47,400 nucleotides of DNA from a virus. The stretch covers positions 1-47,400 of IMG/VR virus record IMGVR_UViG_3300021475_000024; one strand, given 5' to 3'. Positions 1,311 through 47,400 of this stretch are shown one piece after another. Under the pieces are notes generated by a model. It was not told the DNA's origin and searched no databases. It worked only from the letters and a program-made list of their open reading frames with translations. Position 1 is the first letter of the stretch. Each line of letters begins with the position of its first letter. The position numbers and the translations under genes were made by a program.

Positions 1311-3377
1311 TCACAGTCCATTGACCGGCTTGCCTGACGGCCACCAGAACGGTTTCTGAATGCCGATGACGCCCGCATCCCGCAGTTTGTCGCCGCTGCG
1401 TTTGAAGGCGGCGCGAAAGCGGTTGTCGGCGGCTTTTTCGTCAATGTCGGGATCGACCATCTTGGCGCGCATGGCGTCGCGCACGAAAATGACATCGACC
1501 ACCTTGGTGATTTCCTTCGGCAGTCCCTTGAACGGCGGCGGCATGCCGTGCTCGTTGATGGCGTCGTACAGCGCAATCATCAACTGGCGTTCGTTGGCAG
1601 TCGGGTTGTAGCCGTTTTGCTGCGTCACCTGTCCGACATCGAACGGCACCACGGCGCACGATGTTTCGGTGTTGCCCCATTTGTTTTGCCCGACCGCGAT
1701 CACGGGCAAGGTGAATTCCCACTTGATGCCCGACTTTCCTTCGCGCTGCTTGCGCACGGTCGCCTTGTGAACGGTGCCGCCGCTCGATGTCTTTCTGTCG
1801 GAAAGCTCAAACTCGATCGTGGTTTCGAAGTCGGCGGTCAGCGATGAATGCCCGCGAGGCTGGCTGCCGCCTTTCGGCTTGTGATGCACAAGCACCACCG
1901 CAACGCCGAACCTCTCCTGCAATCTGACCAGCCGCTTGCGCACCATCGACACGTCTTGGCTGGCGTTTTCGTTCATGCCGGGCGCGAGCGCACTGAGCGT
2001 GTCGATGACGATCAGCACCAGATGTTCGCCGTAGCTTTTGCAGATGGCTTCGATTTCTTCCATCAGCGCCAGCAGGTCGTCGTCGCTCGAAAAAAAATCT
2101 GGCCGCTTGGTGCAGAGATAGAACGGGAAGGCTTGACCGTGCGGCAGTTCGTGCTGGATCGAATAGGCGAGCTTGCGCTTGCCGAAACCCTTGCCAGCTT
2201 CTGCCGCGACATAGATCACCAGACCGGGTTCGACGTTCTTGCCGTTCCACTTCAGGCCGCGCGCGCAGGACATGCCCATGTCGAATATCCCGAACGACTT
2301 GCCGCTGCCGCTGTCACCGAAGGCGAGACTGATTTCTCCCATCGGGATGATGTCCTCGATCAGCCATGTGTAACCAGTCTCATGACCGAGCGTGGCGATC
2401 TGCTCCCAGCGCAGCCCGCCAAACTTGGATTTGAACGGCGCTGGTGCCCATGTCGGCGTCTTGGCGACCAGCGCGTGCAGGGCATCTGCCGTGCCGCCGC
2501 CTTTGATCCAGTCGGACACGTCGCCCTTGAGCGGCATGTCGGGCCAGTGCGGCGCGAGGTCGAGGACGCGCACGCGTGAGGCGATCGGCTGCACCTGCTT
2601 GGCAACATCCTGCGCATGATCCTGACCGGGCAGCACCGGCCTGCCATCAGGATGGAAACGCAGCTTGCCGTCGCCTTTGGGTGGTTCTGGATTGTGCGCC
2701 TGCGGATCGTTGTCCTGAATGATCACCACGTCGGCGTCTTGGAAATAGGCGGTCAACCCGTTGTGCCATTTGCCGACGCCGCCGGGGTTGCACGTTGCTG
2801 GCACGCCGATCTTGTGCAGATTGTCGGCGTCCTTCTCGCCCTCGACCACGAACACCGTGTTTCCGTTCGCGATCGTCTCCACCAATTCAGGCAATCGGTA
2901 TGGCACCTGATCGATGTCGCGCACGCTGTAGACCCAGCCATATTTTATTTTGTCGGGCGCATCATCGGGACGCGGCTTGCGGCGCTGGCGGAATGTCTTC
3001 GGCTCAAAGCGAACCACCTGAAAAAGCAATTCGTCGTTCTCGTTGACATAGTCGTAATGCGCCACCTCGCGGCCGAGCAGCGCCTTGCCGTTGAATTGTT
3101 GTTCCTCGCGATCCGGTTCGAGGTATCCGTGCTGCTTCATCCATTCGATGGCAGCCTTGTGGTCGCAGCCGTTGTGCCGCGCGATCAGATCGAGCACACC
3201 GCCGCCTGATTTGGCTTCGTGGTCATAGAAGGTGCCGTTCGCCAGATCGATCGACACTGACCCTTGTGAGCCATAGCGCCGCTCGACATCGCTCGACAGT
3301 CGCAAGTTTGGTGCGCCCAGCAATTCGGCGGCGACCGATGCCATATGCACAGCAAACGATGATGGCGGCTCATGCAT
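1311..3377 (-). CDS. Toprim / RepA-type AAA primase-helicase (phage replication)
   Basis: 688 residues. An N-terminal segment (YGSQGSVSIDL, KSGGGVLDLI) resembles the leading part of phage and plasmid primases. A Toprim-like region follows, with VFVVEGEKDADNL (Glu about 179) and VIIQDNDPQA (Asp about 222 and 224). The C-terminal half is a RecA-fold ATPase: Walker A GDSGSGKS at about 354-361, Walker B VLIVIDT at about 454-460, and VHHKPKGG, a sensor-like motif. This arrangement is that of bifunctional primase-helicases which start and drive phage replication. The ATG at 3377 lies 2 bases after the upstream stop, indicating coupling; a GTG at 3407 would overlap the neighbour and lacks a clear ribosome site. 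Neighbouring RuvC-like and GapR-like genes support a DNA-metabolism operon. Confidence 0.85.
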   Translation of the reverse strand: MHEPPSSFAVHMASVAAELLGAPNLRLSSDVERRYGSQGSVSIDLANGTFYDHEAKSGGGVLDLIARHNGCDHKAAIEWMKQHGYLEPDREEQQFNGKALLGREVAHYDYVNENDELLFQVVRFEPKTFRQRRKPRPDDAPDKIKYGWVYSVRDIDQVPYRLPELVETIANGNTVFVVEGEKDADNLHKIGVPATCNPGGVGKWHNGLTAYFQDADVVIIQDNDPQAHNPEPPKGDGKLRFHPDGRPVLPGQDHAQDVAKQVQPIASRVRVLDLAPHWPDMPLKGDVSDWIKGGGTADALHALVAKTPTWAPAPFKSKFGGLRWEQIATLGHETGYTWLIEDIIPMGEISLAFGDSGSGKSFGIFDMGMSCARGLKWNGKNVEPGLVIYVAAEAGKGFGKRKLAYSIQHELPHGQAFPFYLCTKRPDFFSSDDDLLALMEEIEAICKSYGEHLVLIVIDTLSALAPGMNENASQDVSMVRKRLVRLQERFGVAVVLVHHKPKGGSQPRGHSSLTADFETTIEFELSDRKTSSGGTVHKATVRKQREGKSGIKWEFTLPVIAVGQNKWGNTETSCAVVPFDVGQVTQQNGYNPTANERQLMIALYDAINEHGMPPPFKGLPKEITKVVDVIFVRDAMRAKMVDPDIDEKAADNRFRAAFKRSGDKLRDAGVIGIQKPFWWPSGKPVNGL

Positions 3378-3379
3378 GT

Positions 3380-3886
3380 TCACGCGACCACCAATGCCTT
3401 CAAACACAGATCACGGATGTCGTGCAGGACGTTCTGCGGGACGAACCATGCTGGGGGACGACCGCCATACGTCTGCACCCACTCTGGACGCTGCGCATCC
3501 TTCGCCATAAGCCAGCCGCGCACGGCAAAACGCGGAGCCGTCCCGGTTACAAGAATAAACGCATGGTCCTCGTTGTCTTTCTTCGGTCGCACATAAAGTT
3601 CGTAATGATGCCGCGATCTGGTCCTGACCTGAATTGTCAGACCGATGTCGGCAGCCTTGAAGGTGTTGACGGTCGGCGACCAGAAACGACCCATCACTTT
3701 AGCGGCTCCCACTTCACCGCAAGCACCTTCGATGTGAATTTTCCACGCATCGTCACCCTTCTCGACATCGAACCCATTTGCTGGCTCCCGCCCGTCGATC
3801 ATGCAGGCTATGTTGCGCATGATCCCGCACTCTGCTCCCATCATCATTTCGCGGTTTGTCAGCGTGACCCAAATCGGTTCACTCAT
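3380..3886 (-). CDS. Conserved phage protein, possible PD-(D/E)XK-like nuclease
   Basis: 168 residues from ATG 3886, whose ATGA overlaps the stop of the RuvC-like gene; a longer frame starts inside that gene and is not favoured. The middle contains ADIGLTIQVRT followed by YELYVRP, then FILVTGTAPRFAVRGWL. The Asp, then Gln-Val-Arg spacing looks like a degenerate PD-(D/E)XK core, and the position between a resolvase and a primase-helicase fits a DNA-processing role. The nuclease idea is weak because Gln replaces the usual acidic residue and Arg replaces Lys. No family is firmly recognised. Confidence 0.6.
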   Translation of the reverse strand: MSEPIWVTLTNREMMMGAECGIMRNIACMIDGREPANGFDVEKGDDAWKIHIEGACGEVGAAKVMGRFWSPTVNTFKAADIGLTIQVRTRSRHHYELYVRPKKDNEDHAFILVTGTAPRFAVRGWLMAKDAQRPEWVQTYGGRPPAWFVPQNVLHDIRDLCLKALVVA

Positions 3887-4407
3887 GCCGCACCTCGCCC
3901 GAACAACGGTGTTGGCATCAGCGCAAGTTTCGGCTCGATCAGCGAGCACATATAGGACCACGTCGCCAACGCATCGGCCTCGTTATCGTCAGCAACTTCC
4001 CAACCCATCGCAAAGCATTGCCGGACCACCATCGGCTTTGCCTTGGCGCGCTTTGGATTGCAGCCGATGAAGTGATGCCGGATGGCGGCGGTGTCGGCCT
4101 TACGGATGTCATAGACGCCGCATTGATAGGCGACGGTGCCGACCACGGCGGGTAGCCCGAACAGGATGGTCGTCACGTCAACCGTGGTCTTGCCGCTCTT
4201 GAACCCGGCGAGCGGCGCTTCCCACACCACCAGCGTCGGTTTGTGTTCCTGCATCATGTCGGTCATCCACCGGAACGCCTTCGTGAAGGTCGCTTCGTGC
4301 GATGACGTGCCGCCAAATTTTATCGACCCGTGCAGAGGCTTGCCGCCCGGCTCGCCTACGGCCCAGCCAGATGTGGATGCAAGGTCGAGGGCAAGCACGG
4401 TTGGCAT
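3883..4407 (-). CDS. RuvC-like Holliday junction resolvase
   Basis: 174 residues, the usual size of RuvC. The RNase H-fold acidic residues are in place: Asp8 in LALDLASTSGWA, Glu63 in VVWEAPL, and Asp141 and Asp145 in DDNEADALATW. RuvC-type enzymes cut four-way junctions as dimers; in phages they resolve replication and recombination intermediates before packaging. The start follows GTGTGAGCCACA. It sits 6 bases after the GapR-like gene and overlaps the next gene by ATGA, so it belongs to the leftward DNA-metabolism operon. Confidence 0.9.
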   Translation of the reverse strand: MPTVLALDLASTSGWAVGEPGGKPLHGSIKFGGTSSHEATFTKAFRWMTDMMQEHKPTLVVWEAPLAGFKSGKTTVDVTTILFGLPAVVGTVAYQCGVYDIRKADTAAIRHHFIGCNPKRAKAKPMVVRQCFAMGWEVADDNEADALATWSYMCSLIEPKLALMPTPLFGRGAA

Positions 4408-4413
4408 TGTGGC

Positions 4414-4794
4414 TCACACCCCCATGTGCGTCTGCTTGCCCTTGCCTTCAGCCTTCGCCATTGCCGCCTGACCCAGCGGCGTGTCGGCAAATTCGCCCAG
4501 CTTCTCCGTCAACATCTGGTATTCGGAACGCTCATCATCCTCCAAGTCTTCGGTGATGCCCTCGATCTTGCGTTCCAGATCGCGTTCCTTGATTTTCTTT
4601 TTCAGCAGTTTTTTGCTGATGCCCTGATCACTGGCGTGATCGTATTTGTCGGCCTTCATTTTGCGGATGATCTTGCACCGGTTCATGTAGGCCATCTTCT
4701 CTGACAGCAGGTCGCCGTCGAGCTTTTCTATAGCTTCCACGGCAGCTTGAACGTCTTCCGCCGCTGGCTCATTTGCGGTTGCTGGGTTCGCCAT
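4414..4794 (-). CDS. GapR/DUF2312-like DNA-binding protein
   Basis: 126 residues from ATG 4794, preceded by GGAGGCCAGCAA. The protein is one long charged helical stretch: an acidic N-terminus, IEKLDGDLL, then a Lys-rich part (ISKKLLKKKIKERDLERK) and LTEKLGEFADTPLGQAAM. This order, and the closing 'LG...DTPLGQAA', resembles the alphaproteobacterial GapR family (DUF2312), which clamps overtwisted DNA ahead of replication forks and RNA polymerase. The match is by pattern and is remote. As first gene of the leftward operon, next to the control region, it would be made early. Confidence 0.55.
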   Translation of the reverse strand: MANPATANEPAAEDVQAAVEAIEKLDGDLLSEKMAYMNRCKIIRKMKADKYDHASDQGISKKLLKKKIKERDLERKIEGITEDLEDDERSEYQMLTEKLGEFADTPLGQAAMAKAEGKGKQTHMGV

Positions 4795-4955
4795 TTGCTG
4801 GCCTCCGGTTGGCTTGCTGGGGAAAGGTATTGGCGCGGACCCGTGATGTGATCCACGCTGGCATCGAGACAAAATTTTCGCAGCAGAGATTTTTGCTCTC
4901 GCCGAAATTGTTCGGTCAAGCAGAAAAAAAAGTTAGGGCGAAAAATCTGCATTTT

Positions 4956-4973
4956 GAGTAAAGCGCTTTACTC
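4956..4973. promoter_or_regulatory. Operator, perfect palindrome GAGTAAAGCGCTTTACTC
   Basis: Each half is GAGTAAAG with a GC centre, so all 18 bases are self-complementary. It lies 162 bases ahead of the GapR-like start codon. The same 8+2+8 pattern recurs at 5227-5244 and 18690-18707, which marks it as a binding site for a dimeric phage regulator rather than chance. Which protein binds it is unknown; the CRP/FNR-type product of 17990-18622 is the leading candidate because a copy lies in front of its own gene. Confidence 0.7.
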
Positions 4974-5003
4974 TGCGCCGCATTCTCGATGTCGCCACAT
5001 TCT

Positions 5004-5197
5004 GTTACGCGCGCGTTACTTTCATTTATTTTTGCGGTTCCAAAAATCGATTGGCACGATCGATGCTACGCGCGGGCGCGCGCGGCATTTAAAAACAACT
5101 ACCTATTATGTTGATACAGGGCGCGCTTTAGCGCGACCTGTATGTCATCTGCCGCTGTGACATCGCGTTACGCCGATCTTGTGACACGGCGCGTTAC
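5004..5197. repeat. GTTAC repeat cluster
   Basis: GTTAC occurs at 5004-5008, 5015-5019, 5167-5171 and 5193-5197, each in a GCG-rich setting. The first two are 11 bases apart, about one helical turn. A similar trio occurs at 1084-1088, 1096-1100 and 1106-1110, between the genes that start at 1049 and 1304. They could be iterons or protein-binding sites. The unit is only five bases, so chance is not excluded. Confidence 0.3.
5114..5143. other. Long hairpin in control region
   Basis: ATACAGG (5114-5120) and CGCGC (5122-5126) pair with GCGCG (5131-5135) and CCTGTAT (5137-5143). One G/A mismatch interrupts the stem and the loop is TTTA. Twelve paired positions in 30 bases form a very stable structure. 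It has no following T-run, so it is not a typical terminator; a role in origin structure or leader RNA is possible. Confidence 0.5.
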
Positions 5198-5226
5198 ATC
5201 GCGTACTCGAAAAAAAAGTGGCCTCA

Positions 5227-5244
5227 GAGTAAAGCCCTTGACGC
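5227..5244. promoter_or_regulatory. Operator copy overlapping a -35-like element of the early operon
   Basis: GAGTAAAG-CC-CTTGACGC matches the palindromic pattern at 8 of 8 bases in the left half and 6 of 8 in the right. The right half contains TTGACG (5238-5243), a good -35 hexamer reading toward the recE/recT-like operon. The clearest -10-like hexamer, TATGAT at 5267-5272, is 23 bases away, which is too far, so the exact promoter is uncertain. A bound regulator would block polymerase here, as expected for early-operon repression. Confidence 0.6.
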
Positions 5245-5361
5245 GACAGACCATCAAAACCGTGTTTATGATTTCCCGATCACGCGGTTTCGAAAATTCA
5301 AAAACCAAAAACTGCTGACCGCGAACGGCGCTGCGCGCGCCATTCGGAGGAACTTTGTGCC

Positions 5362-5529
5362 ATGTCCGACAAGACCATCGCCAACATCGCCCGCGACCTT
5401 GCCGCTGCCATCATCGCGGCAGCGGAAAAGCACAACGCGCACGATGAACCGCAGCGGGAGATCAGCGCGCTCGAAAAAAAGCTGATCGATGCCTATCGCG
5501 ACGAAGCCGTTGAGACGATCCGGGTGTGA
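5362..5529 (+). CDS. Small hypothetical protein, first gene of early operon
   Basis: 55 residues, starting at ATG 5362 with GGAGGA about ten bases upstream. The product begins MSDKTIANIARDLAAAII and is helical, with an Ala-rich first half and an acidic second half (ISALEKKLIDAYRDEAVE). Its stop overlaps the start region of the exonuclease gene (GTGTGACGATG), so translation is probably coupled. No family is recognised. It may assist the recombination proteins, but only its position suggests this. Confidence 0.65.
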   Translation: MSDKTIANIARDLAAAIIAAAEKHNAHDEPQREISALEKKLIDAYRDEAVETIRV

Positions 5530-6458
5530 CGATGATCCAGAGCATTCGATGGGACGGCAGTCAGATCACGGAGCCCGGCATCTACAGCGGAATTCCGCTG
5601 GATGAGTACCATCGCGCCGACATCTGCGCAGGGCCGTCGATTTCGTCAACGATGCATCGCGATGTCACCAACGGGTCGCCCGCGCATGCGTTCGCGAAAT
5701 CGCCGCTCAATCCGAAACGGCCCGAGCCGAAGGAAACCGAAGCGATGGCCCTTGGCAGCGCGCTGCACTGGATCGTCGCGCGCGAACCGGGCTTCGATAG
5801 TCGCTTCGTGATCAAGCCTGAGAAGTGGCGCGGCAAGGCATGGAACAGCGATGACGGCAGGGACCAAGTGAAGCGCTGGAAGCGGGACCACATGATCGTT
5901 CTGACCGAGAAAAACGTCGAACAGCTTGAGGGCATGGCTGCCACACTCAGCGTTCATCCGATGTTTCTCGCTGGCATCCTGCGCGGCAGGCTGGAGCAAT
6001 CAGGGTTCTGGATCGACAAGACGACCGGGCTGTGGATCAAGATCAGGCCCGACGCGATGCCGAACGACAGCGGCGATTTTGCCGACCTGAAGACGACGCA
6101 ATCGGTGATGCGTTACGAACTCCAGAACAGCATTTGCGAGTACGCCTATCACCAGCAGGGCGCGCTGATCCTCGAAGGCGCGCGCGAGCTTGGGCTTGAG
6201 GCAACCAGCTTCACGCTGGTGTGGGTTGAAAGCGCGCTGCCCTATGCGGTGCGGGTCACGCAACTGAAGGACGAAGACCTCGCGCGCGGACACAACCAGA
6301 ACCTTGTGGCGCGTCGCGTCATCGCCGACTGCCTCAAGACCGGCGAGTGGCCCGGTCCCGGCGATGGGCGCGACGATGCCGAGTACATCGACCTGCCGGA
6401 CTGGAAGCGCAAGCAGATCGATGACCGCCTGAAATACGATTTGCAGGAGGCGGCATGA
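5526..6458 (+). CDS. RecE-like PD-(D/E)XK exonuclease (DUF3799-like)
   Basis: 310 residues from GTG 5526, or 308 from ATG 5532. The opening GIYSGIPLDEYH, the LGSALH motif (77-81), the RPDAM segment (174-178) and the active-site core DFADLKT (Asp184, Asp187, Lys189), followed by YAYHQQGA, are those of phage exonuclease-VIII-like nucleases. Such enzymes chew one strand of double-stranded DNA to expose single strands for an annealing protein. The RecT-like gene lies two genes downstream, giving the usual recE-recT pairing. Start overlap with the preceding stop indicates coupling. Confidence 0.85.
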   Translation: MTMIQSIRWDGSQITEPGIYSGIPLDEYHRADICAGPSISSTMHRDVTNGSPAHAFAKSPLNPKRPEPKETEAMALGSALHWIVAREPGFDSRFVIKPEKWRGKAWNSDDGRDQVKRWKRDHMIVLTEKNVEQLEGMAATLSVHPMFLAGILRGRLEQSGFWIDKTTGLWIKIRPDAMPNDSGDFADLKTTQSVMRYELQNSICEYAYHQQGALILEGARELGLEATSFTLVWVESALPYAVRVTQLKDEDLARGHNQNLVARRVIADCLKTGEWPGPGDGRDDAEYIDLPDWKRKQIDDRLKYDLQEAA

Positions 6459-6874
6459 GCGATGACATCGCCAGAATGCTGGGTACGGCTCTCGTTGCGC
6501 AGGTCGAAGAAACGCTACGCGCGGTTGTGAGCGACAACATCCGTATCGAAGCGAAGATCATAGAGCTTGAAAGCACGGGCAAGCGCATCGTTGATGGCGG
6601 CCAAATCAGCGACGGTGACGAGGAGTACGAATGGGAGTTCACCGACCATCGTACCGGGGAAGTCTTGGCAACAGGCAAGGGCGACAAACCTGAGTGGACG
6701 AACGGTTGGTTTCACATCGACGCCGTCTGGAATGAAGTCGGCATCAGCCAGCAGGTTTATGTCGAACCGCTTCCTTTGGCAGTCGCTGAAGCTGTCAGCG
6801 AATGGGCCGAAGAACATGAGCAGGAGGCCCGCGCTTGGCTTGCCGAAATCGGAAAGGTCGGAGACGTGCCATGA
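6455..6874 (+). CDS. Hypothetical protein in recombination operon
   Basis: 139 residues; ATG overlaps the exonuclease stop (ATGAG) and is preceded by AGGAGGCGGC. It is strongly acidic (ISDGDEEYEWEF, EWAEEHEQEARAWLAEIG) with a helical N-terminus. No domain is recognised. A position between exonuclease and annealing protein, together with an acidic surface, would fit a DNA-mimic or a partner of the recombination proteins, but nothing in the sequence proves this. Confidence 0.7.
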   Translation: MSDDIARMLGTALVAQVEETLRAVVSDNIRIEAKIIELESTGKRIVDGGQISDGDEEYEWEFTDHRTGEVLATGKGDKPEWTNGWFHIDAVWNEVGISQQVYVEPLPLAVAEAVSEWAEEHEQEARAWLAEIGKVGDVP

Positions 6875-7185
6875 GCGACATCGGCCGCGCCTATCGCGAG
6901 CTTGGCGACCTGATCACCTATGCGCAACTACCGGACCCGGTGCGCAACCGGCTGATCCTGATCCGATCGTTTCTGCCACGGCAGCGCCCGAGCCGTCGCG
7001 CGCCAGAACCATCGGTGAAGCTGACGCCAACGGTGAAGCAAGCCATCCGCGACATCAAACTCCAGAACCCGGCGCTGACCGAGCAGGAGATTGCGTCGAT
7101 GGTCAACGTCAGCGACTGGCGCGTGAACGAAACGCTCACAGGCAAACGCGGCAAGCGGTTCGCAATCGAGGGGTATCAGCCATGA
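6871..7185 (+). CDS. Small helix-turn-helix protein
   Basis: 104 residues from ATG 6871, overlapping the previous stop by ATGA. The C-terminal half has a helix-turn-helix pattern (LTEQEIASMVNVSDWRVNE, about 71-89) followed by a basic tail, so the product may bind DNA. The Arg-rich middle (RQRPSRRAPEP) looks like a linker. It overlaps the recT-like gene start by 4 bases. It could be an operon-level regulator or a replication accessory protein. Confidence 0.65.
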   Translation: MSDIGRAYRELGDLITYAQLPDPVRNRLILIRSFLPRQRPSRRAPEPSVKLTPTVKQAIRDIKLQNPALTEQEIASMVNVSDWRVNETLTGKRGKRFAIEGYQP

Positions 7186-8189
7186 CCGACGAAACGATGC
7201 GCGGTCATCCGACCGAACAGCACACCGCTGACGAAATTCCCGGCGTGAAGTCGCGCGAGCCGGATGACGGTCGCGTCACCAAGCGCATGCTGGCCGAAGG
7301 TCAGATCGAGAAAGTGCTGACCGACCGCACCACGATGGTGCCGGTCGCTGAGTTCGGGCTGCGGTTCGAGAACGCGATGCAGATGGCGGAAGCCGCGAAG
7401 CTGATGGCGACCGCCGGTCCTCTGCTGCCGACATGGCTGCAAGGCAACCCCGGCGGCTGCTGGGCGATCATGCTGCGCTCGACCGAGATTGGCATCTCGC
7501 CGCTGACGCTGGCGGCGATGAGCTTCGTCACCGAGAAGACCACGGGCGGCGTGAAGACGCAGCGCATTGGCTGGGACAGCAGCTATTTCCGCACGCTGGT
7601 CGAGAAGTACGCGCCGATCAAGGGACGCTTGCAGGCGCGCTATCAGGGCGAGGGCGACGATCTGGTCTGCATCGTGTTCGCGACGTTCAAGGGCGAGAGC
7701 GAGCCGCGCCAGTTTCCGCCGCCCGGCACCGAGAAGGACTTCACGCTGGCGAAGCTGCACCCCGGTCGCGGCAGCAAGGAGGTCAACGGCGAGAAGATCA
7801 CATGGGTCAAGGGCTCGCCGCTGTGGGACAGCAAGCCGCCGCTGCAAATGTTCTACGCCATGAGCCGCGACTGGGCGCGCATGTACTGCACCGACATCGT
7901 CGCGGGCGTCTACACGCGCGAGGAGCTTATTGAACAGGGCTTCACCGACGTGGTGCAGCCAAGCGACCTGTCGCCGCGTTTGCGTGAGCGCCTGCGTGGC
8001 CCGATCGGCGACCACGACATGAGTGCCGACATCGATGCCGCGATCAGGTCGGCGCGTGTCGATAGCAAGAAATCCGGCGCGGCGTCCGCCCCTGCCGGTG
8101 AGGCTGCGCCGTCACCCTCCGCTGCCCCCAGTGAAGGTGACGGCGCAGTAGCCGCAACCAATCAACAGCAACAGGAGTCAACGTCATGA
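7182..8189 (+). CDS. RecT-like single-strand annealing protein
   Basis: 335 residues from ATG 7182, inside the previous stop (CATGA). The core shows features of phage RecT-type proteins: an N-terminal helix, LLPTWLQGNPGGCWAIMLRS followed by TEIGISPLTLA, a beta-rich middle, and the closing signature WDSKPPLQMFYAMSRDWAR followed by GVYTREEL (compare P..Ml..Ra...aR...G.Yt.EEl). The tail after about residue 290 is Ala/Pro/Ser-rich and probably disordered. It should coat and anneal the strands exposed by the upstream exonuclease. The longer frame back to 6567 is a shadow of the preceding genes. Confidence 0.8.
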   Translation: MTDETMRGHPTEQHTADEIPGVKSREPDDGRVTKRMLAEGQIEKVLTDRTTMVPVAEFGLRFENAMQMAEAAKLMATAGPLLPTWLQGNPGGCWAIMLRSTEIGISPLTLAAMSFVTEKTTGGVKTQRIGWDSSYFRTLVEKYAPIKGRLQARYQGEGDDLVCIVFATFKGESEPRQFPPPGTEKDFTLAKLHPGRGSKEVNGEKITWVKGSPLWDSKPPLQMFYAMSRDWARMYCTDIVAGVYTREELIEQGFTDVVQPSDLSPRLRERLRGPIGDHDMSADIDAAIRSARVDSKKSGAASAPAGEAAPSPSAAPSEGDGAVAATNQQQQESTS

Positions 8190-13093: not shown

Positions 13094-13417
13094 ATGGGTG
13101 ACAAGCTGAAGACGATGCCGGAGGTGGCTGATGAACTGTCGGTCGATCTGGAACAGGTTCGCCGTCTGGTGAAAGACGGCGAGTTGCATCCCATCAACGT
13201 GGGTCGAGGCACAAAACGCGAGTGCCTTCGGTTCGAAGATGCGGACATCGCAGCATTCAAGCAGAGAAGGGTCACATGCCGACCGTCTACAAAACGCCGA
13301 AATCGAAATTCTACCAAACCGACATCTGGATCGACGGTGTTAAATTTTCTCGCTCAACAAAGAAAACGAGCGAGCGAGAAGCAAGCCGCGAAGCTGATGA
13401 AATCGAAAAAGGACTGA
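13094..13417 (+). CDS. Excisionase-like helix-turn-helix protein
   Basis: 107 residues. Residues about 7-58 (MPEVADELSVDLEQVRRLVK, then INVGRGTKRECLRFEDADI) match the MerR-like/HTH_17 winged helix of excisionase-type proteins, which bend attP DNA and set integration direction. The half-site GAGTAAAA (13073-13080) lies just upstream of its start. Its 3' end overlaps the integrase gene by 142 bases in another frame, and the residues there are basic and low in order, so only the N-terminal half may matter. A role as recombination directionality factor is inferred from fold and position. Confidence 0.7.
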   Translation: MGDKLKTMPEVADELSVDLEQVRRLVKDGELHPINVGRGTKRECLRFEDADIAAFKQRRVTCRPSTKRRNRNSTKPTSGSTVLNFLAQQRKRASEKQAAKLMKSKKD

Positions 13418-14523
13418 GGGCCGACATCGTCGCCGAAGGCCCGCAGAAATTCTCGCTGCGGCTGATCGACGTGGCGGGTTGCTACATGACCGACATCGGC
13501 GACCATCACTCCGGTGAAGGCGCTGGTATCACCCGCAGCAAGGTCGCGCTGGTGGTGAAATTCTTCACCGACAAGTACGGGCAGAACATCCCGCTGACCG
13601 ACATCGACCACGACAAGGCGACCAAACTGCTCAACTGGCGGCGCAAGCACAAACTCGACACGGCGCGTGCATTGCTCGACCCGACCGGCGAGTACGAGGC
13701 GACCAGCGAGAAGCCGATCGGTGCCTACACCGTCAACGACACGATCGAGCAATTGAAGAAATTGTTCACCTACGCCAAGGGGCGCAAGGCGCATCTGCCG
13801 AACGCGCCCGAGTTCAAGAAACTGTACCTGCGCGAGAACAAGCATCAGGCCCGCCCGCTGTCGGAGGCGCAGAGCGAACGGCTCGATCTGGCGACCATCA
13901 CGGTGAAGGATGGCGATTATGATCCGCTGATCCAGTTCTCGCGGGCGACCGGCAAGCGCAAGACCGAGTGCCTGCTGCGCTGGCCGCAGGTGGACTGGGA
14001 TGCGGGCGTCATCCACATCACCGGCAAGCGCGACAAGCCGATGACCGTCGCCATCACGCCGGTCATCAGGGCGATCCTGTGGCCCCTGCGGGACCACCAC
14101 CCCGACTGGGTGTTCACCTATCAGGCGGCGACCACGCAGCGCCGCAAGCAACCTGACGGCACGTTCATCAAGTGGGTGAAGGGCAAGCGCTACCCGATCA
14201 CCAAGTGGAGCCTGCGGACGCACTGGATCAACATCCGCAAGGCGGCTGGTCTGCCGCTGACGGGACCGGGGCGGTTCCGCTACCACGATATTCGGCACGA
14301 CTTCGCGTCGAACCTGCTGGCCTCGATCCCGACAGCGGACGGCATGAAGATCGTGCAGGAGGCGCTGGGGCATTCGAAGATCACGACGACGATGGACATT
14401 TACGGGCACGTCGCCGCCGACAAGGTCGCGGCTGCGATCGAGCAGCAGGCGCAGGCGCGGCTGCAAAAGCGTCACAAGAACCACCGGAGTGACCACCGGA
14501 GCCGAACCCTGAAAGCGGTCTAA
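13276..14523 (+). CDS. int: Tyrosine integrase
   Basis: 415 residues from ATG 13276, preceded by GAAGGG; a longer frame back to 13222 adds residues unlike an integrase start. The protein opens with an arm-binding beta-sheet (MPTVYKTPKSKFYQTDIWID). The catalytic part carries the first Arg region (SRATGKRKTECLLRWPQVDW), YHDIRHDFAS (His-x-x-Arg), LGHSKITTTMDIYGH (His and the Tyr nucleophile). It should integrate the phage at the 3' end of a tRNA-Pro gene, since that sequence lies directly downstream. Two CCACCGGAG repeats lie inside its last codons, so its own 3' end doubles as part of attP. Confidence 0.95.
   Translation: MPTVYKTPKSKFYQTDIWIDGVKFSRSTKKTSEREASREADEIEKGLRADIVAEGPQKFSLRLIDVAGCYMTDIGDHHSGEGAGITRSKVALVVKFFTDKYGQNIPLTDIDHDKATKLLNWRRKHKLDTARALLDPTGEYEATSEKPIGAYTVNDTIEQLKKLFTYAKGRKAHLPNAPEFKKLYLRENKHQARPLSEAQSERLDLATITVKDGDYDPLIQFSRATGKRKTECLLRWPQVDWDAGVIHITGKRDKPMTVAITPVIRAILWPLRDHHPDWVFTYQAATTQRRKQPDGTFIKWVKGKRYPITKWSLRTHWINIRKAAGLPLTGPGRFRYHDIRHDFASNLLASIPTADGMKIVQEALGHSKITTTMDIYGHVAADKVAAAIEQQAQARLQKRHKNHRSDHRSRTLKAV
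14481..14501 (+). repeat. Left arm-type repeats (two CCACCGGAG)
   Basis: Two copies 12 bases apart, in the last codons of int (encoding part of NHRSDHRS). In tyrosine-integrase systems, arm-type sites are short direct repeats bound by the integrase N-terminal domain. Copies of the same nonamer on the far side of the core support this role. Confidence 0.6.
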
Positions 14524-17079: not shown

Positions 17080-17432
17080 CGCCTGCACCTCCATGATCTG
17101 CCGCCGTGCGTCTCGACCTTGTGCATGCCGTGCCGCGTGCAGATGTCGCCGTGATGTTCGGTGTGGCGGCGGGCGCTTACAGTCGCCCCGACAGTTTGAT
17201 GCACGTCGGTTCGTGCAGCCGCCACTGGCACCGGAGGCTCGACCGCCGCCGCCGGGGCTGGCTCTGCGATCGGCAGTCGATTGGCTTTCGGTGCAACCGG
17301 TTCTTCTGCGGGCCATCGTCCCGCGAGCGTATCGGGCGCGCTCGGCGGCGGTGGTGCGTCGCGCTGCGATGCCAGCAGGAACAACGCAGGCCACAACGCC
17401 GCTGCGCCCAGTAACACCTTGAACGTCGTCAC
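17076..17432 (-). CDS. Secreted or membrane-anchored Pro/Ala-rich protein
   Basis: 118 residues from GTG 17432 in a GTGA overlap with the upstream stop. Residues about 4-22 (FKVLLGAAALWPALFLLAS) are a signal anchor or signal peptide, followed by about 65 residues rich in Pro and Ala. The C-terminus GDICTRHGMHKVETHGGRSW with two Cys looks like a small folded knot; this ending is familiar from rhizobial proteins of unknown role. As a phage gene in a lysogeny-side operon it may act in the host envelope, for example in exclusion. Confidence 0.6.
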   Translation of the reverse strand: MTTFKVLLGAAALWPALFLLASQRDAPPPPSAPDTLAGRWPAEEPVAPKANRLPIAEPAPAAAVEPPVPVAAARTDVHQTVGATVSARRHTEHHGDICTRHGMHKVETHGGRSWRCRR

Positions 17433-17689
17433 TGCGTCCCCCAGCCCTCCGGCCTGCCGCCATGCCGGTCGAACATGATCGCCTCGTTGACCGGGATCAG
17501 TCCGCGCATGCATGTGATCCAGTGCTCAATGCTTTCCTCGCGCAACGCGGGATGATGCCCCGCAAAGAATATCGCCACCAGATCGGCGAGCGCCGCGCCT
17601 TGTATCTCCGGCCCTCGACCGTGCAGCAATTCGCCGATCTTCTCGGTCAGCTTCTCGGCTTCAAGCGTCAGTCGCCGTTGTCGCTTCAT
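17429..17689 (-). CDS. Hypothetical small protein
   Basis: 86 residues. The N-terminus is basic and helical (MKRQRRLTLEAEKLTEKI); the rest is mixed (ADLVAIFFAGHHPALREESI). It overlaps the upstream gene by 29 bases and the downstream gene by 4. No family is recognised. Confidence 0.55.
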   Translation of the reverse strand: MKRQRRLTLEAEKLTEKIGELLHGRGPEIQGAALADLVAIFFAGHHPALREESIEHWITCMRGLIPVNEAIMFDRHGGRPEGWGTQ

Positions 17690-17993
17690 CGTACTCTGCC
17701 TCTGCCACGTCCAAGATCACGTCGATCATGCCGACCACATGGCTAAGACGCTTGTGTATTTCCGCGCCGGTTTCTTCGCGCATGTCGATCAGGCCAATCA
17801 GCAGGTTGCCCATCTCATTCGATCGAAACAGGGTCAGCGCGCCGACCAGCGCCGGAAACAGATTGATGGCGCGCGCGACCATGAACGCGTCCTCTGTTAC
17901 ATCCTCGCAATGAATGGTGATCGTGTGGCCGCCGCCCTCGTTTAGCTGCAACTCGGCGTTGGTGTCAGTTATAGGCCCGAACTTGATCTTCAT
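17661..17993 (-). CDS. Hypothetical protein cotranscribed with CRP-like gene
   Basis: 110 residues, ATGA overlap with the CRP/FNR-type gene. The N-terminal third is beta-rich (MKIKFGPITDTNAELQL, GGHTITIHCEDVT) and the rest helical (ARAINLFPALVGALTLF). No membrane segment is convincing. Its tight coupling to the regulator suggests a related job, for example modulating it, but no evidence shows this. Confidence 0.6.
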   Translation of the reverse strand: MKIKFGPITDTNAELQLNEGGGHTITIHCEDVTEDAFMVARAINLFPALVGALTLFRSNEMGNLLIGLIDMREETGAEIHKRLSHVVGMIDVILDVAEAEYDEATTATDA

Positions 17994-18622
17994 CGGTCGT
18001 CCCCACTCTCTGCTCCCAGAAACATGGAAAGCGCCAGCTTGCTCAGTCGGTACTTGCCGGTGCTGATCTTTACCGCCATGCCGGATTTATGGAAGACCTT
18101 GAGGATGTCGGTGACGCGCTGACGTGTCGCGCCGATCTGAATGCCAAGGCTCTTGGGCGCAGTCTCGATGATCAGCGCCTCTCTGCCGTTGAGTATCTTG
18201 AGCAGGTGGCGCGCGAGCCGCTTCGCCGCCGGGTCATTGTTGTTTCGTTCCGTCACCCGCTCTGCCATGTCCTCCACAAACTTGGCGTTGAGAACAGGAT
18301 ACTGCGCCAGCAGATCGAGAAAATTATTCGACTGAAACGCCATCACGCGCGTGTCTTCGACCAACGCGACGGCGTCGTGGAGAAAATGATGCGCCAACTC
18401 ATGTGCGCTTTCGAACAGCCAACGGTTGGGACCGACGACCTCCAGCGTGCGTGCCTTATCGACCAGCCCGATCTGCCCGCGTTGCACCATGAAGACCCGC
18501 GTGGCATCGCCGCCCTTCTTGTAGAGCGCCTCGCCTTTGCGCAGGCGAAGCATGGTTCGTCCCGGTCCATCTCTGGAAAAGAATTCGCGCAGCCACGCGC
18601 CGCCGTGGTCCGCCGCCGCCAT
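17990..18622 (-). CDS. CRP/FNR-family transcription regulator
   Basis: 210 residues from ATG 18622 after GGGAGTGAACC. Residues about 15-125 form a cyclic-nucleotide-type beta-barrel (LRKGEALYKKGGDATRVFMV, then QRGQIGLVDKARTLEVVG). The long dimer helix follows (PVLNAKFVEDMAERVTERNN), then a CRP-type winged helix with recognition helix ATRQRVTDILKVFHKSG. The recognition helix has TRQ where CRP has SRE, so a non-CRP target is expected. The first gene of a leftward operon of six. The palindrome GAGTAAAG-TC-CTTTACTC lies 68 bases upstream, suggesting autoregulation. Likely lysogeny or host-state regulator; inference. Confidence 0.85.
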   Translation of the reverse strand: MAAADHGGAWLREFFSRDGPGRTMLRLRKGEALYKKGGDATRVFMVQRGQIGLVDKARTLEVVGPNRWLFESAHELAHHFLHDAVALVEDTRVMAFQSNNFLDLLAQYPVLNAKFVEDMAERVTERNNNDPAAKRLARHLLKILNGREALIIETAPKSLGIQIGATRQRVTDILKVFHKSGMAVKISTGKYRLSKLALSMFLGAESGDDR

Positions 18623-18689: not shown

Positions 18690-18707
18690 GAGTAAAGTCC
18701 TTTACTC
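18690..18707. promoter_or_regulatory. Operator GAGTAAAG-TC-CTTTACTC
   Basis: Perfect 8+8 inverted repeat with a two-base centre, 68 bases ahead of the CRP/FNR-type start codon. It matches the 4956-4973 site at 16 of 16 arm positions. Two TGATTGCA repeats (18715-18722, 18732-18739) lie just beyond it. No clear -35/-10 pair was recognised. Confidence 0.65.
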
Positions 18708-18831: not shown

Positions 18832-19218
18832 TCAGGTAAGCGCCTTCGCGGCAGCGCGGATCGCTGCGATCATGTGCAGGAAGTATCTGGCATTGACGCG
18901 CGCCTGAAGGAATGCATCGTGCCCGACGTAGCCACCGCCGCACTTGGCGACCACTTGGTTTCTGACCAGCGGCTTCAGAAATCGTTGCACATTGGCTCGC
19001 GGCATGCCGGTCACCTTGGTGATGCGCATGATGGACATCGGCTTGGCGTGCCGGTCATCGTTCACCCGGATCGCCATCGCCACCAAGATTTCGGGGAAGA
19101 TCGCGCCGATGTTGTCGTGGCGCACATAGCCCTCGATCATCGCCTTGACGCAGATCAGCATCATCTTCGACACGACGACCGACGCCCGGCGGCGCATTTC
19201 AAGCTCTTTCGATGTCAT
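18832..19218 (-). CDS. Winged-helix regulator-like protein
   Basis: 128 residues from ATG 19218 after CGGAGGGTGTC. A helical N-terminus is followed by a winged helix: IRVNDDRHAKPMSIMRITKV, then TGMPRANVQRFLKPLVRNQV and a glycine wing (AKCGGGYVGHD). This is the pattern of MarR/IclR-type DNA-binding domains. It faces the XRE gene (19346) across a 127-base divergent spacer, a classic cI/cro-like arrangement, so it may be a lysis-lysogeny regulator. Family is not settled. Confidence 0.7.
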   Translation of the reverse strand: MTSKELEMRRRASVVVSKMMLICVKAMIEGYVRHDNIGAIFPEILVAMAIRVNDDRHAKPMSIMRITKVTGMPRANVQRFLKPLVRNQVVAKCGGGYVGHDAFLQARVNARYFLHMIAAIRAAAKALT

Positions 19219-19345
19219 GACACCCTCCGATTGCAATGGAAAGGATTAACGGCTTCAACAGTTTACCGCTTCTTAAAAGTAGAATTAGGTTGTGCAGGTG
19301 CGGAATAACCCGCAGAATTATTGAAAACACCGCAGAGGACGGAAA
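19219..19345. promoter_or_regulatory. Divergent promoter region between the two regulators
   Basis: 127 bases with higher A/T than its surroundings. It contains the dyad TGCGG-AATAAC-CCGCA (19299-19314) and a GATTGCAA motif (19229-19236) that resembles the repeats downstream of the winged-helix gene. It should hold the promoters of both regulators. No -35/-10 pair stands out. Confidence 0.45.
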
Positions 19346-19729
19346 ATGCCACCACACATCAAAGCCGCCACCCCGGTGGATGCCTATATCGGGGAAAAAA
19401 TTCGCGGCTACCGCAATCAACAGGGGCTGTCTCAGGAGGCGCTGGGGGCGATGATCGGCGTCACGTTCCAGCAAATCCAGAAATACGAGAAAGGGGTCAA
19501 TCGATTGAGCGGATCGCGGCTGCAACAGGTCGCTGACATCTTCAAGGTGCCTGTCTCCGAACTGTTTCCTCCGGCGATGCGCAACGGGAAGAAGAAGGAG
19601 CTAACGAGCGTCGATCGCATCGTTGCGACACGCGATGGCATGAAGCTGGTGGAATGCTTCGTCACCATCAAAAACGAAACCATGCGGGCGGCGGTGGTCA
19701 GTCTGGCAGCGCAGTTTGCCGGGCTCTGA
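19346..19729 (+). CDS. XRE-family repressor-like protein
   Basis: 127 residues from ATG 19346 after AGAGGACGGAAA. The first 70 residues are a Xre/Cro helix-turn-helix: VDAYIGEKIRGYRNQQGLSQ, then LGAMIGVTFQQIQKYEKG and VADIFKVPVSELF. This is the form very common in Rhizobiales genomes. No LexA-like peptidase domain follows, so induction is not by RecA-driven self-cleavage. Divergent to the winged-helix gene. It is the best CI- or Cro-like candidate in the window. Confidence 0.85.
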   Translation: MPPHIKAATPVDAYIGEKIRGYRNQQGLSQEALGAMIGVTFQQIQKYEKGVNRLSGSRLQQVADIFKVPVSELFPPAMRNGKKKELTSVDRIVATRDGMKLVECFVTIKNETMRAAVVSLAAQFAGL

Positions 19730-47235: not shown

Positions 47236-47400
47236 TCATGCCGCGTCGTCGGCGGCAGCCTCATCGGCTTGATCTTCCGCAGCCTGATCGGCGGCGTCCT
47301 GTGCGGCTTGATTGGCGGCGTCCTGTGCGGCCTGATCGCTTGGCGCGAGCGGTTGGTTCGCCGCCGCGTAGACCACCGGGAAAACCAGATCGAGTTGTTC
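47236..47400 (-). CDS. Partial CDS, probable portal C-terminus
   Basis: The last 54 codons of a gene entering from the right edge. Ends in an Ala/Asp/Gln-rich tail; a 24-base tandem repeat (47285-47332) encodes QAAQDAAN then QAAQDAAD. The frame before it (LDLVFPVVYAAANQP) is not recognised. Portal is inferred from lambda-like order (portal, protease, decoration, capsid). The stop overlaps an ATG of the protease gene. Confidence 0.55.
   Translation of the reverse strand, partial: EQLDLVFPVVYAAANQPLAPSDQAAQDAANQAAQDAADQAAEDQADEAAADDAA

Follow-up and report, generated by a model that had tools for sequence, protein, structure and literature searches.

A CRP-family regulator with its own predicted operators in temperate phages of Bradyrhizobium

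Introduction

Most phage decision circuits described so far are built on CI/Cro, LexA-like or peptide systems. Bacterial regulator families have also been reused by phages: the temperate phage GIL01 uses its LexA homologue gp6 to activate one of its promoters (PMC6182141), and Aeromonas phages encode LuxR receptors (PMC6456758). An earlier description of a phage-encoded Crp/Fnr regulator, or of a switch built on one, was not found in the open literature, which does not prove its absence.

In CRP, the Arg82-Ser83 pair holds the phosphate of cAMP, and class II activation uses a site centred at -41.5. The Escherichia coli protein binds TGTGA-N6-TCACA. It contacts bases through Arg180, Glu181 and Arg185 (PMC12531629, PMC10127613), and RE(T/M)VGR is the recognition motif of cAMP-dependent CRP (PMC10127613). 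Regulators of the FNR and FixK type belong to the same superfamily and bind dimeric palindromic sites with TTGAT half-sites. Here we describe a CRP-family protein that is encoded by several temperate Bradyrhizobium phages, together with the set of palindromes that it is predicted to bind.

The phage and its CRP-family gene

The window analysed spans an entire IMG/VR virus record, 47,400 bases long (IMGVR_UViG_3300021475_000024). It is classed as linear, and its ends (1-166 and 47239-47400) may be incomplete. A contractile-tail structural block is present, and none of the ORFs examined was recognized as a portal or terminase. The phage is considered temperate because it carries a tyrosine integrase. 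Two early operons were predicted from gene spacing.

13222-14523, plus strand: tyrosine integrase (PHROG 1, 9.7e-34; PF00589)
1311-4795, minus strand: leftward early operon, primase/helicase (PHROG 239, 1.3e-35) and accessory genes
5362-8189, plus strand: rightward early operon, comprising a small gene, an exonuclease VIII-like gene (5526-6458; PHROG 412, 3.8e-67) and a RecT-like gene (6567-8189; PHROG 561, 4.3e-28)

The regulator and the genes that follow it lie elsewhere in the window.

17990-18622, minus strand: CRP/FNR-family regulator gene (crp), 210 aa (Pfam PF00027; PDB profile; syntenic orthologues in three other phage lineages)
18107-18127, minus strand: beginning of the DNA-recognition helix, TRQRVTD, which alignments place at CRP positions 179-185 (E. 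coli: SRETVGR)
17661-17993, minus strand: partner gene, 110 aa, overlapping the crp stop codon by ATGA
17429-17689, minus strand: second small gene behind crp in the operon, encoding 86 aa and also conserved in lineages G001 and G950

A sequence-only reading of this DNA had recognized a CRP/FNR-type regulator that leads an operon and carries a non-canonical recognition helix, and each of these points was borne out. The gene is a real ORF on the minus strand, and the N-terminal cyclic-nucleotide-binding-like domain of its product matches Pfam cNMP_binding (PF00027) at 2.4e-8, above the curated cut-off. The C-terminal Crp-type winged helix-turn-helix (HTH) matches HTH_Crp_2 (PF13545) at 1.7e-3, which is below the cut-off; two orthologues match the same model at 2.6e-8 and 7.4e-8, and a profile built from three orthologues matches full-length CRP structures in the PDB at about 1e-10. 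In an alignment with E. coli CRP, T-R-Q replaces S-R-E at residues 179-181, and D replaces R at residue 185. The corresponding motifs of the orthologues are SRQTVHR, SRQTVND and ARGTAHR, and the RE(T/M)VGR motif is absent from the window protein and its orthologues. The crp gene is followed by two small same-strand genes, the first of which overlaps its stop codon. This 110-aa partner is conserved (44-51% identity in G196 and G001, 50% in G950), has no Pfam, PHROG or PDB match, and is a possible co-regulator.

Related phages

As a single-protein query the window CRP found no match in IMG/VR, GTDB genomes or INPHARED, and relatives were reached only by way of the exonuclease, the primase and the partner gene. 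The exonuclease led to two phages, G001 (IMGVR_UViG_2908764845_000003) and G002. The primase led to a remnant prophage in Bradyrhizobium barranii and, among 266 Bradyrhizobium genomes, to a prophage in genome G196 and to the G001 phage inside genome G118, while the partner gene led to a further lineage, G950, and a near-identical second record. The crp gene, its partner and a divergent gene for an XRE-type regulator are syntenic in four lineages (the window, G001, G196 and G950). These are the only crp-bearing lineages known; they are separated by long branches, and the CRP proteins of the other three are 25-35% identical to that of the window.

The nearest non-phage relatives found are orphan Crp/Fnr paralogues of Bradyrhizobium with a TTRSRVS helix, which differ from the phage proteins in recognition helix and nucleotide pocket. 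They score about 100-110 bits against the phage profile, versus 357-390 bits for two prophage proteins that are themselves part of that profile. In a tree with long branches, the proteins of the window, G001 and G196 group together as a clade that excludes 30 host paralogues (support 99/96). Matches to CRP in records labelled as phage include apparent host contigs.

A crp gene of G002 (L004:891-1595, plus strand) was rejected as an orthologue: it has a host-like helix (RRTSVTD), falls outside the phage clade and lies near a response-regulator receiver gene (L004:45-461, minus strand). The response-regulator and Crp/Fnr pair is probably cargo, and the G002 record stops short of where the crp locus would lie.

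Predicted operators of the phage family

The sequence-only reading had also placed a shared operator in front of the regulator. A perfect palindrome does lie there, and copies of it recur before both early operons.

18690-18707, no strand assigned: operator GAGTAAAGTCCTTTACTC before the crp gene, with counterparts in G001, G196 and G950
4956-4973, no strand assigned: operator site 1, GAGTAAAGCGCTTTACTC, lying before the leftward replication operon
5227-5244, no strand assigned: operator site 2, GAGTAAAGCCCTTGACGC, lying before the rightward recombination operon

The palindrome, GAGTAAAG-NN-CTTTACTC (8+2+8), is perfect at the crp-proximal site and at site 1, and the window holds no other perfect 8+2+8 palindrome; site 2 departs from it at two positions. 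Sites 1 and 2 fall in the gap that separates the leftward primase operon from the rightward exonuclease/RecT operon. With up to three mismatches, three matches were found in the 47.4-kb window versus 0.04 expected from shuffles, and a limit of four mismatches added none. A scan of IMG/VR with the palindrome gave one unrelated contig, which was taken as a chance match.

Operators occur at the same three places wherever these can be read, that is in the window, G001, G196 and G950, all of which carry a crp orthologue; G002 and B. barranii have them at sites 1 and 2. The number of crp-proximal operators is one in the window and G001, two in G196 and three in G950. Matches to a half-site rule with a spacer of 2 number three in the window, four in G196 and two in G002; G950 has five, all with a spacer of 3, and matches of a CC type number three in G001 and two in B. 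barranii. At each phage's own spacer, the rule hits only the known operator places in these records; it was derived from the sites themselves, and what makes the result informative is that hardly any further matches turn up. Phage G003 shares the replication module but lacks both the operator and a crp gene; this module can therefore also be controlled in another way.

Host genomes were searched for the operators as well. With at most two mismatches, the G196 genome (8.4 Mb) yields three matches, all of them prophage operators, and the same search gave none in two other genomes; with the looser CC type, the two best matches in the 10.4-Mb G118 genome are the prophage operators. Their absence elsewhere in the G196 genome at that mismatch limit speaks against the crp gene being a passenger (moron) taken from the host's orphan paralogues and acting on host genes. 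Bradyrhizobium genomes do hold many Crp/Fnr paralogues, and the host-like crp gene of G002 is itself a probable passenger, but the separation of the phage clade from the host paralogues and the synteny with the XRE and partner genes in four lineages make such an origin and role highly improbable.

The gap that holds sites 1 and 2 has a further repeat. CGTTA/CGTTAC is several-fold to twenty-fold denser at 4796-5361 and in the counterparts of this stretch in G001, G002 and G196 than elsewhere (GTTAC, 7.1 per kb at 4796-5361 versus 0.4 elsewhere in the window). These repeats do not vary with the type of CRP protein and may be origin repeats or XRE sites.

The probable reader of the operators

The predicted targets fit the register of CRP, NGTNA-N6-TNACN, in the window, G196, G002 and G001, and its N7 form in G950. 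Arg180 (CRP numbering) is kept in all four phage proteins, while G5 and T6 are invariant in 34/34 half-sites counted. Gln181 occurs in the three phages with GTAAAG/GTCAAG half-sites (helices TRQ, SRQ and SRQ), and Gly181 in the one with GTNACC (helix ARG). The G950 protein, whose sites have the longer spacer, carries insertions adjoining the recognition helix and ahead of the HTH. The operators were assigned to the CRP-like protein because the two co-vary over the four lineages, and from this comparison the palindromes are very likely the protein's own targets.

The phage system shares with E. coli CRP its two-domain family, its operator register and spacing, the base-contacting Arg180 and the base G5. 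It departs from it in that Glu181 is replaced by Gln or Gly, half-site position 7 is not G, Arg82-Ser83 is missing and the targets are phage early promoters. From FNR and FixK it differs in having no cysteine cluster, in a GTNA rather than TTGAT half-site, and in the Arg kept at CRP position 180.

The palindromes might instead belong to the neighbouring regulator, with the CRP-like gene as merely one of its targets.

19346-19729, plus strand: XRE (CI-like) regulator, 127 aa, divergent to crp (Pfam HTH_3, 7.8e-15)

Such inverted repeats are commonly bound by CI-like proteins in phages, and an XRE gene is present in the same locus of all four crp phages. Its recognition helix, FQQ[IV]QKYEKG, is nevertheless the same in the window, G001 and G196, and therefore cannot explain why their operators differ. 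Half-sites and spacing instead match the CRP register and shift with the CRP protein, and no operator lies directly before the XRE gene in the window and G001. Recognition by the XRE protein is accordingly an improbable explanation.

Direction of control

Promoter elements near site 2 bear on whether the CRP-like protein would activate or repress.

5267-5272, plus strand: predicted -10-like hexamer, TATGAT

Judged by the predicted -10, site 2 occupies the position expected of a -35 element. Its centre lies at -43.5 in the window and G196, and at -41.5, the class II position of E. coli CRP, in G001 and B. barranii. The hexamers downstream are TATGAT, TATCAT and TATATT, with no -35 hexamer at normal spacing; G002 and G950 have a weaker -10-like hexamer. 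An equally good hexamer at these offsets has a chance of about 0.013 per sequence, the sequences being related to one another. Because site 2 sits in the -35 place, centred 41.5-43.5 bp upstream, activation of the class II type is proposed at the exonuclease/RecT promoter. In an activator site that overlaps the -35 region and in having a second regulator alongside, the system would resemble that of GIL01 gp6, which differs in its LexA fold, its late promoter (P3) and its Bacillus host. For the early operons as a whole the balance tilts slightly towards activation, and repression of them is the more doubtful outcome.

At its own gene the protein probably acts as a repressor. Negative autoregulation is suggested by the position of the crp-proximal sites near the start codon in G196 and G950; this is clearest in G196, in which no -10-like element lies between these sites and the start codon.

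A different account makes the CRP-like protein the immunity repressor, which in the lysogen would occupy the operators, shut both early promoters and tune its own synthesis until induction removes it. An operator set with an autoregulatory site suits such a repressor, as do the crp-proximal sites that stand in tandem, two in G196 and three in G950, in a repressor-like layout. However, site 2 precedes a -10-like element that has no normally spaced -35 hexamer, which suits an activator; site 1 has no consistent promoter register and does not lie over any evident promoter (a conserved TTGA lies 28-36 bp downstream); and the conserved CI-like XRE protein, encoded beside the crp gene, could hold immunity. 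The immunity repressor is a tentative reading with an appreciable, though minority, probability.

The explanation we prefer is that the CRP/FNR-family protein would be a dedicated phage transcription factor, binding NGTNA-N6-TNACN operators as a dimer in front of its own gene and at both of the divergent early promoters (primase; exonuclease/RecT), three regulatory places in all. It would thereby set both the early-gene programme and its own level, with class II type activation at the exonuclease/RecT promoter and probable repression at its own. As a whole, a dedicated regulator of early genes acting through private operators is reasonably likely; protein family, operator set and co-variation rest on comparative sequence. 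The sequence-only reading had cast the regulator as a possible lysogeny switch, which stays conjectural: the CI-like XRE gene lies beside it, and the promoter geometry points to an activator of early genes.

Sensing and neighbouring regulators

In all four phage proteins Arg82-Ser83 is replaced by a His-containing stretch (FLHDA, IHRHT, HHRHT and VHSTT). The window and G196 proteins have no cysteine and that of G001 has one, so these three lack the cysteine cluster that carries the [4Fe-4S] centre of FNR. Since Arg82-Ser83 is lost and the window protein lacks cysteine, neither the usual type of cAMP sensing nor oxygen sensing in the manner of FNR is likely. The coupling to host metabolic or oxygen state that the sequence-only reading had suggested is not supported. 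AlphaFold2 models, with a mean pLDDT of 62 and 53, were too poor for reading the ligand pocket, and only their HTH part is reasonable.

Between crp and the XRE gene the phages differ in content.

18832-19236, minus strand: winged-HTH gene between crp and XRE in the window phage

At the same position G001 has a LuxR-type gene (L026:2378-3169, minus strand), and G196 has no such gene. The LuxR-type product matches Autoind_bind at 9.3e-23 and GerE at 8.4e-13, and the residues that usually line an acyl-homoserine-lactone pocket (W, Y, D-P, W, G) seem present on visual inspection. It recalls the LuxR receptors of Aeromonas phages, from which it differs in host and in its place beside a CRP/XRE pair; the window phage has no LuxR-type gene. 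In two phages an AraC-type gene (HTH_18, 4e-17) adjoins the crp partner (L065:17294-18280, minus strand, in G196; L136:6719-7702, plus strand). A decision core of CRP-family early regulator and XRE protein, with exchangeable sensor genes plugged in (LuxR-type in G001, AraC-type in G196 and G950, winged-HTH in the window), is a speculative and rather unlikely reading.

Implications

A phage-private CRP-family regulator with a co-evolving set of early-promoter operators is unusual, and on comparative grounds this description is well supported. Should a CRP-family protein occupy the decision seat and use a fast-changing operator language of its own, nitrogen-fixing bacteria would harbour a new type of phage switch. 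The four proteins, with three to five cognate sites each and a one-base change of spacer, form a natural data set on protein-DNA specificity. If the sensor genes are exchangeable, related phages would respond to different host signals by way of a common operator logic, and the system allows a direct test of whether early phage expression is tied to small-molecule or quorum signals.
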